In this document: positions 15,593-45,360 of the stretch, piece after piece
Layout: each line of letters starts with the position of its first letter
Numbering within the stretch: position 1 is the first letter of the stretch
Source: Thermococcus henrietii
GTDB lineage: Archaea; Methanobacteriota_B; Thermococci; Thermococcales; Thermococcaceae
Length of the DNA stretch: 64,000 nucleotides
Direction of reading: 5' to 3'
Assembly: GCF_900198835.1 (NCBI RefSeq)
Contig: NZ_LT900021.1
Location: forward strand, 62,001 to 126,000
Notes under the pieces: generated by a model
Told to the model about the DNA's origin: nothing
Databases searched by the model: none
The model's input: the letters and a program-made list of their open reading frames with translations, nothing else
Program-made: the position numbers and the translations under genes

Positions 15593-18640
<3,048 letters not shown>

Positions 18641-20356: not shown

Positions 20357-20738
20357 TGAGCAAGGAGTACGGCCGGTGGAACTCCCCTCAAATGGGGGAG
20401 TACCGATTCCCGTCCGGGGGTTTGGTCGGGGTGCCGGGCCTGCCTTACCCCCGAGGGGTCCGCCTTTCGGCGTTTCCTCGGGAGCGCACCTGGTGTGACC
20501 CGGACTGGAGGGCGGGGTTCATCTTTGGGTGCTTTGCACCCGTTCCCCCCGACGCCGCCGTCTTGGCGTCCGGGTCTTCGTCGCCCCCTGTTCGGGGGCT
20601 CCACCCAATAGGGGCGAACCCCCGCAGTGAAAAATTTTTGCAAAACCCCTTACGGGGGAGATTTTTGAAAAAGAACCTGCTAAAATTGAGAACAGGAATG
20701 CACAAAAATAGACATAAAAATGTTAAAAATTTTTGCAA
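20357..20738 (-). promoter_or_regulatory. rRNA operon leader and AT-rich promoter region
   Basis: About 380 bp without a protein gene. In transcript order (right to left) it starts with a strongly AT-rich stretch (about 20630-20738) containing AAAATTTTT blocks that can serve as TATA elements. A GC-rich leader of about 270 bases follows, with several small hairpins such as CCCCCTGTTCGGGGG, and then the 5' arm of the 16S processing stem at 20409-20444. The exact start site cannot be read. The prs gene ends at 20739, so the promoter begins right behind it. Confidence 0.7.
20409..20444 (-). repeat. 5' arm of the 16S rRNA processing stem
   Basis: Partner of 18822-18857; see there. It lies about 55 bases before the mature 16S 5' end. 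Confidence 0.85.
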
Positions 20739-43113: not shown

Positions 43114-43620
43114 TCAAAACTTCGTCCACTCAACCCTGTAGTAGGTAACGTCGGCGTCCTCGTCAACTATCGCCATCACCATGTTCTTCCTGACGCCGTG
43201 GGCCACTCTAACGCGCGCTGTTATGTCGTTCGGGCTCAGGCGGGAGTTCTCCGGCAGGACCCACACGAGCCACTGGGAGTGCTCGTCCATGCCCCTGCGG
43301 TAAACCCGGAAGTGCGAGCCGAACTTGAGGCCGGACTTGACGGTGTAGCCCCTGTCGCGCAGGTCCTTGTAGACGAGGTACTTGGCGTCGAACAGCTCGT
43401 CCCTCTTCCTCCCGAGGTTCATAAGCTCCTCGACAGTGAGCTTTCTCTTCCCGTCCCTGACCTCTATCTTGCCCCTCTCGACGAGGTAGGTGGCTTCGAG
43501 CAACGAGAGGAAGAGCTTGCCCTCCACCAGCTTTCCGAAGTGGCGCTTGTTGTAAAGGCCGTTTATCGCGTTCTGGTCTGTCGAGAATACCCTGTCCCCG
43601 CTCAGGTAAAAGACTATCAT
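43114..43620 (-). CDS. endA: tRNA-intron (splicing) endonuclease
   Basis: 168 residues from the ATG at 43620, six bases after GGAGGGG, sharing its A with the TGA of rimI. The catalytic triad is visible: Tyr107 in FRVYRRG, His114 in DEHSQWLV and Lys145 in GVRKNMV. The short length matches the homotetrameric or alpha2-type archaeal enzyme. It cuts bulge-helix-bulge sites in pre-tRNAs and in pre-rRNA, relevant to the rRNA stems in this window. It is coupled to rimI. Confidence 0.95.
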   Translation of the reverse strand: MIVFYLSGDRVFSTDQNAINGLYNKRHFGKLVEGKLFLSLLEATYLVERGKIEVRDGKRKLTVEELMNLGRKRDELFDAKYLVYKDLRDRGYTVKSGLKFGSHFRVYRRGMDEHSQWLVWVLPENSRLSPNDITARVRVAHGVRKNMVMAIVDEDADVTYYRVEWTKF

Positions 43621-44120
43621 CAGCTTCCCCTCCATTCCTCTGCAGGCAGGAGCATGTAGTATGCATCTTCACCGTCCGAGTAATAGCCGATAATCCGCTT
43701 CACCTTCCGGAAGCCAAAGCGCTCGTAGAGCTTTATGGCCTTTTCGTTGCTCACGCGAACTTCGAGGCCGATGTAGCGAGCCCCCCGCGCGATGAGCCTG
43801 TCTATCGCCTCGGTGAGTAGGGCCGAGCCTATGCCGTTCCCGCGGTAGCGCTTGTCAACGGCTATGCTCATTATGTGTCCCTCAAGGTCCGGGCGGAGGT
43901 AGGCCATGACGTAGCCGATTACCCTGCCGTTGTACTCGGCGACGAGAAAAGTGTCCGGGTTGTTCTCGAGGAAGACGAGGAAGATTCCCCTTGGGTAGGC
44001 CTCGCGGAAGGACTCCCTCTCGATTCTCATCACGTCGCTTATGTCGAAGAGCTTCGCCGGCCGTATCGTGACGAGTGCCAGCGGTATTCTGGCCTTCACT
44101 TCCCTCGCTGAGACGCTCAT
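43620..44120 (-). CDS. rimI: GNAT N-acetyltransferase, RimI/Ard1 type
   Basis: 166 residues. The acetyl-CoA site is VDKRYRGNGIGSALL, with the typical FLVAEYNGRVIGYVMAYL before and NEKAIKLYERFGFRKVK after. Archaeal enzymes of this type acetylate protein N-termini. Its stop overlaps the endA start, so the pair is co-expressed. Confidence 0.9.
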   Translation of the reverse strand: MSVSAREVKARIPLALVTIRPAKLFDISDVMRIERESFREAYPRGIFLVFLENNPDTFLVAEYNGRVIGYVMAYLRPDLEGHIMSIAVDKRYRGNGIGSALLTEAIDRLIARGARYIGLEVRVSNEKAIKLYERFGFRKVKRIIGYYSDGEDAYYMLLPAEEWRGS

Positions 44121-44140: not shown

Positions 44141-44150
44141 GCTTTTAAGG
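44141..44150 (+). promoter_or_regulatory. TATA box for the C/D box sRNA
   Basis: GCTTTTAAGG lies about 25-30 bp before the expected 5' end of the guide RNA at about 44175, at archaeal TATA spacing. Confidence 0.5.
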
Positions 44151-44174
44151 CTTGAGGGGACTCCCTATGATGAA

Positions 44175-44241
44175 CACCCCAACGTGATGAGCACTCTCGA
44201 ACCTGACCCCGGGATGATGACCGGATTCCTGGCTGATACAT
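44175..44241 (+). ncRNA. C/D box guide sRNA (dual guide)
   Basis: All four boxes are present at canonical spacing: C GTGATGA (44184-44190), a 12-base D' guide GCACTCTCGAAC (44191-44202), D' CTGA (44203-44206), a 7-base linker, C' ATGATGA (44214-44220), a 12-base D guide CCGGATTCCTGG (44221-44232) and D CTGA (44233-44236). Two 12-base guides are the archaeal norm for L7Ae-Nop5-fibrillarin particles. The D guide shares CGGATTCCTG with plus-strand 16224-16233, so it pairs over 10 bases with 23S rRNA; the fifth base from box D points to the G at minus-strand position 16230. The D' target was not found in the window. Ends are approximate. Confidence 0.82.
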
Positions 44242-44274
44242 CAACTTTAAAAGGCTGGACAAAAACTCCAGCAC

Positions 44275-45360
44275 ATGCGGAAGTGGCTCCCCGCCCTGCT
44301 CCTCCTTTCAGCCCTCTCGATTTTCCTCGGCGTCTACTTCGGCCCGGTTAGCTTGAGTTTTCACGACGTCGCCGAAAGCGTGGATTACGGGGTAAAAACG
44401 ACCATCACGAGCTGGCTCTCATGGGTTCTCGACAAACTCGCCCTGGCTATCCACTCGAACGTCCTCGCGGAGGAGGCCAAGTACGTAGCGGAGATTGTTT
44501 CAGGCCAACCCCCGCGGTACTTCACAATAGTGTGGCAGATTCGCATGCCCGAGGTCCTCTTAGCTTACCTCGTCGGCCTCGCGCTGGCGAGTGCGGGAGT
44601 CGCGAGCCAGGCGCTCTTTCGGAATCCCCTCGCGGACCCCTACATAATCGGAATAAGCTCCGGTGCCGCGCTCGGGGCGGCGATAGCGACGCTGATTAAC
44701 CCCCTCTACATGGCTCCGTTCGCGCTCGTCTTTTCATTCCTCTCGGTCTTCATCGTATACGCGATAGCGAGGACCAACGGCGCGGTTCCCGTGGACACGC
44801 TCCTCCTGGCGGGAATAGCCTACGGCTTCCTTGCAAACGCAATAACGTGGTACATCTACGTCACCCACCCGCAGGAAAGCCATCTCGGCTGGATGTGGCT
44901 CCTCGGGAGCTTCAACGGGAGCACCTGGCGGAACGTCGCGGTAATGCTCGTCGTCTCGGTTCTCGGTGTCCTGTTCCTCAGCTGGCGCTGGCGCGAGCTC
45001 AACCTCATTCTGCTCGGCGAGGAGAGCATAGCCCTCGGCCTCGACCTCCACCTGTATAGAAAAATCTTCCTCGGCGTCATAGCGACGCTTACTGCTTTCG
45101 CCGTTTACACGGCGGGAATAATCGGCTTCATCGGACTGGTAAGCCCCCACATAATGCGCCTTCTCCTCGGGCCGAACCACAGGGAGTTAACGCCAGCAAC
45201 TGCCCTCTTCGGCGGTGTTCTGCTCGTCGTTGCGGATTTGCTCGCGAGAACCGTGGCGAAGCCGACAGTAATCCCCGTCGGCATAGTGACGGCCCTCATG
45301 GGCGCGCCCTTCTTCCTCTACCTCCTGATGAGGCACAAGAGGGGTGAGCTCGTTGCTTGA
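44275..45360 (+). CDS. FecCD/BtuC-type ABC importer permease
   Basis: 361 residues, about nine hydrophobic helices. Family motifs: QIRMPEVLLAYLVGLALASAG (in part), GVASQALFRNPLADPYIIGISSGAALGA (in parts), WLLGSFNGSTW and GFIGLVSPHIMRLLLG. It moves iron chelates, cobalamin or similar across the membrane. A long extracytoplasmic insert follows the first helix (residues 25-80). A TATA-like AACTTTAAAAGG about 30 bp upstream suggests a nearly leaderless transcript. The ATPase gene follows with overlap; no binding-protein gene is adjacent. Confidence 0.93.
   Translation: MRKWLPALLLLSALSIFLGVYFGPVSLSFHDVAESVDYGVKTTITSWLSWVLDKLALAIHSNVLAEEAKYVAEIVSGQPPRYFTIVWQIRMPEVLLAYLVGLALASAGVASQALFRNPLADPYIIGISSGAALGAAIATLINPLYMAPFALVFSFLSVFIVYAIARTNGAVPVDTLLLAGIAYGFLANAITWYIYVTHPQESHLGWMWLLGSFNGSTWRNVAVMLVVSVLGVLFLSWRWRELNLILLGEESIALGLDLHLYRKIFLGVIATLTAFAVYTAGIIGFIGLVSPHIMRLLLGPNHRELTPATALFGGVLLVVADLLARTVAKPTVIPVGIVTALMGAPFFLYLLMRHKRGELVA

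Follow-up and report, generated by a model that had tools for sequence, protein, structure and literature searches.

A Thermococcus henrietii copy of the C/D box sRNA sR5 predicted to guide methylation at two neighbouring sites of 23S rRNA

The element described here is, with a probability of about 0.94, sR5 in its Thermococcus form, a C/D box sRNA with two guides that is predicted from its sequence to direct methylation of G2370 and G2403 of the 23S rRNA. It lies, together with both of its predicted targets, in the window analyzed, a stretch of 64,000 nucleotides of the Thermococcus henrietii genome. As a member of a described family with a known mechanism, it opens no new class.

The initial annotation had read this element as a C/D guide RNA with boxes C, D', C' and D and two guides of exactly 12 nt; the positions were confirmed on the sequence, and the reading was upheld, Rfam now naming the family sR5. 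The covariance-model scan that it had proposed gave a match to RF01304 (sR5) at 47.2 bits, above the gathering score of 40, covering positions 1–53 of the 53 of the model (window 44181–44237). Archaeal C/D box sRNAs are defined by C/C' boxes RUGAUGA, D/D' boxes CUGA, and guides of 10–12 nt (PMC7994747), and the window element has all of them, with a spacer between the D' box and the C' box. The strict C-D'-C'-D pattern occurred once in the window, both strands included, and never appeared in 200 dinucleotide shuffles. A terminal stem was not evident in sR5. Genes of the fibrillarin, Nop, and L7Ae families are encoded in this genome (G000, Pfam matches). The features of the locus and of the two targets are the following:

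43620–44120, minus strand: GNAT acetyltransferase gene (Pfam)
44142..44150, plus strand: TATA-like element CTTTTAAGG, probable sR5 promoter (sequence; predicted start site)
44178..44241, plus strand: approximate mature sR5 C/D box sRNA (Rfam RF01304 match 44181–44237; predicted ends)
44184..44190, plus strand: C box GTGATGA (sequence, strict box-pattern search)
44191..44202, plus strand: D' guide GCACTCTCGAAC, 12 nt (sequence; target pairing; cross-genus comparison)
44203..44206, plus strand: D' box CTGA (sequence, strict box-pattern search)
44214..44220, plus strand: C' box ATGATGA (sequence, strict box-pattern search)
44221..44232, plus strand: D guide CCGGATTCCTGG, 12 nt (sequence; target pairing)
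44233..44236, plus strand: D box CTGA (sequence, strict box-pattern search)
44275–45360, plus strand, divergent from the GNAT gene: FecCD permease gene (gene neighbourhood)
16256..16265, minus strand: D' target TCGAGGGTGC of the 23S rRNA, on the 3' side of a local hairpin (pairing, local fold)
16224..16234, minus strand: D target TCAGGAATCCG of the 23S rRNA, in the loop and 3' side of the hairpin that follows (pairing, local fold)

The D guide shares CGGATTCCTG with the plus strand at 16224–16233, the 10-base match to 23S rRNA on which the initial annotation had relied, and an extra G-U pair extends the duplex to 11 contiguous pairs (1 G-U included) with 23S positions 2399–2409. G2403 (window minus 16230) lies opposite the fifth guide base upstream of box D, which upholds the G already predicted as the methylation site. 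Both guide and target are nearly invariant, the D target being identical in 65 of the 65 genomes with a 23S sequence read and the guide core CGGATTCCTG being kept in 59 of 61 sR5 copies.

The D' guide had been thought to lack a target in the window. This was wrong: it forms 10 contiguous pairs, including 1 G-U, with 23S positions 2368–2377, encoded in the same window at minus 16256–16265, a match that was overlooked because of the one G-U pair in the duplex. Its fifth base upstream of the D' box faces G2370 (window minus 16263), so that fifth-base pairing is found for both guides, at G2403 (D) and G2370 (D'). Both guides have their predicted target in 23S rRNA, at sites 33 nt apart, which makes sR5 a double guide as this term is used in PMC4644070. 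Like other double-guide sRNAs, it carries two guides directed at most 100 nt apart on one rRNA, follows the fifth-base rule, and belongs to the 50–70 nt class, and no essential difference from them was seen. Only 0.1% of trials with composition-shuffled guide pairs gave both 10-bp matches at most 100 nt apart. By alignment to the E. coli 23S rRNA, G2403 corresponds to E. coli 2309 and G2370 to E. coli G2276, positions that we take to lie in helices H84 and H81, respectively. A local fold places the targets on the 3' sides of two 23S hairpins that follow one another.

The presence of the element in related genomes, which the initial annotation had named as a check, was borne out, as 76 of the 94 Thermococcales genomes gave RF01304 matches (E ≤ 0.001), with 60 exceeding the gathering cut-off. 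The Thermococcus and Pyrococcus-type copies have the same box layout and the same D guide; their D' guides differ in sequence but target the same 23S site. The D' guides by genus group are GCACTCTCGAAC in Thermococcus, GCGCCATCGATG and GCGCCATCCGATA in the Pyrococcus-type copies, GCGCTTCCGATC in g4, and GTGCCCTTGATC in g5, and the D' target variants across genomes are TATCGAGGGTGC, TATCGGGGGCGC, TATCGGAGGCGC, TATCAGGGGCGC, and TATCGAGGGCGC. For nearly all D' guides, the best site in the whole 16S and 23S rRNA is the 23S D' target, the exceptions being two single-copy guides (CCACTCTCGAAG and TGAACGCCATCGATA) that score slightly better at another rRNA site. The other genera with the target read keep this pairing, except for the single g2 genome (G002), which has lost D' complementarity. 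In cross-pairing, the Thermococcus D' guide reached -17.6 with its own target, as compared with -7.6 to -13.7 with the remaining ones, the g5 guide was best on g5 targets, and the Pyrococcus-type guide GCGCCATCGATG was nearly indifferent among targets. This comparison covers few distinct targets and is supportive rather than a formal test. That the D' guide diverges between genera yet still pairs, usually best with the site of its own lineage, lends direct comparative support to a function. sR5 shows a guide changing together with its rRNA target between genera, and its second target is testable. A literature search on RF01304 found no paper; the D' target and the guide-target co-variation were worked out here, and Gaspin et al. 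2000 may already list targets.

The same comparison bears on tRNA T loops as a target of the D' guide in place of 23S rRNA, T-loop pairing being a suggestion that the initial annotation had called speculative. The 3' half of the guide, UCGAAC in the RNA (TCGAAC), is complementary to the common T-loop motif GTTCGA. This match is one of sequence only and does not hold up across copies: any of the four bases may end the D' guide in Thermococcus, and in other genera its last four bases are GATG, GATA, or GATC, whereas within the rRNAs the guide nearly always pairs best at the 23S site, which co-varies with it. We therefore regard T-loop targeting as very improbable. Just as improbable is that the element serves as a cis-regulatory k-turn, to be bound by L7Ae within the 5' leader of the FecCD permease gene, rather than as a trans-acting guide. 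Its position just upstream of this gene would fit, and leader k-turns have been discussed for T. kodakarensis (PMC4247193), but a separate TATA-like box and a conserved promoter lie directly after the sRNA, beyond box D and ahead of the permease start. sR5 is also found without a downstream FecCD permease in most relatives, T. kodakarensis included, which argues against its being the leader of this gene, and its guides stay complementary to 23S rRNA across genera.

The sR5 locus reads as that of a guide RNA with its own probable promoter, the TATA-like element CTTTTAAGG lying ~43 bp upstream of box C. This agrees with the fitting distance noted in the initial annotation, and most Thermococcus sR5 loci show such a spacing too. 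CTTTTAAGG is nearly symmetric and may serve the divergent GNAT gene too. The neighbours had been called rimI and an ABC permease: GNAT and a FecCD permease stand, and Pfam gives no specific support for RimI. As for expression, the T. kodakarensis RNA named sR05 (116401–116466, PMC9014305) was rejected as evidence for sR5, since the sRNA numbering of that study follows genome position and the sR5 orthologue lies at 2002457–2002514 in G023. This genome was taken as T. kodakarensis KOD1 because C/D-like elements are present in it at published sRNA positions. The T. kodakarensis sR5 copy is absent from the published circular-RNA table.

Transcription of sR5, RNP assembly, and methylation in this organism are inferred from the sequence. 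In the proposed mechanism, C/D and C'/D' would fold as a k-turn and a k-loop to which L7Ae binds; Nop5 and fibrillarin would then join the L7Ae-bound sR5, and the D' and D guides would pair with 23S 2368–2377 and 2399–2409, allowing fibrillarin to methylate the 2'-OH of G2370 and G2403. Since each target forms the 3' side of one of two adjacent hairpins, it is plausible, on the folding model, that sR5 binding would hold both hairpins open until release, a folding-chaperone effect. It is rather unlikely that sR5 is mainly a folding chaperone, with the near-perfect palindrome GGGTGGCCACCC of most Thermococcus copies forming a hairpin in the 5' leader in place of the missing terminal stem.

The palindrome itself (GTGGCCACC, mostly GGGTGGCCACCC) stands 4–5 nt ahead of box C in 25 of the 37 copies from Thermococcus (L119 and L012 are examples) and in 0 of 24 others, and is degenerate in the window (44167–44180). 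The GGGTGGCCACCC 12-mer is absent from this genome and was found only at the sR5 locus in each of four genomes checked. Several sR5 copies with the upstream palindrome can form a 5' hairpin.

No recognised sR5 was found in 19 genomes with a 23S sequence read, and their targets are unchanged in nearly all. At least seven genomes (G022, G026, G039, G041, G055, G059, and G067) keep the GNAT-FecCD gap and lack sR5; six of these (all but G055) have a 23S sequence read, with unchanged target sequences. Pattern searches of limited tolerance found no replacement guide for either site. Judged from these genomes, sR5 is dispensable and its predicted marks non-essential, because locus and unchanged targets are kept without the sRNA. 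The sR5-lacking genomes with an otherwise kept locus are natural controls for the function of the two predicted methyl groups.

Two leads were discarded. An sRNA with guide GTACCCTCGCAT, present in sR5-lacking g4 genomes and at first sight a substitute for the D' guide, has its best site elsewhere (~LSU 2005–2020), and the same kind of sRNA is also found in sR5-bearing genomes. Matches to GGATTCCTGGCTGA in G014, G033, and G044 are without the C/D box layout. In the T. henrietii genome, a candidate second C/D sRNA (G000:C1:1628486-1628507) with guide GTACCCTCGCAA resembles T. kodakarensis sR28 (832364–832425), and close relatives of this guide pair best at ~LSU 2005–2020.

Two further elements were observed in the window. 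A near-palindrome, TGGACAAAAACTCCA, lies at 44256–44270 between the TATA element and the start of the FecCD permease gene; it has a counterpart, TGGAYAAATAATCC, in relatives, including those without sR5, and both are candidate operators for a metal or cofactor regulator. Finally, an H/ACA guide RNA, Pab19 (RF02794), was found at 20494–20599 on the minus strand, ~140 nt upstream of the 16S gene and on the same strand, and is probably located in the rRNA leader.
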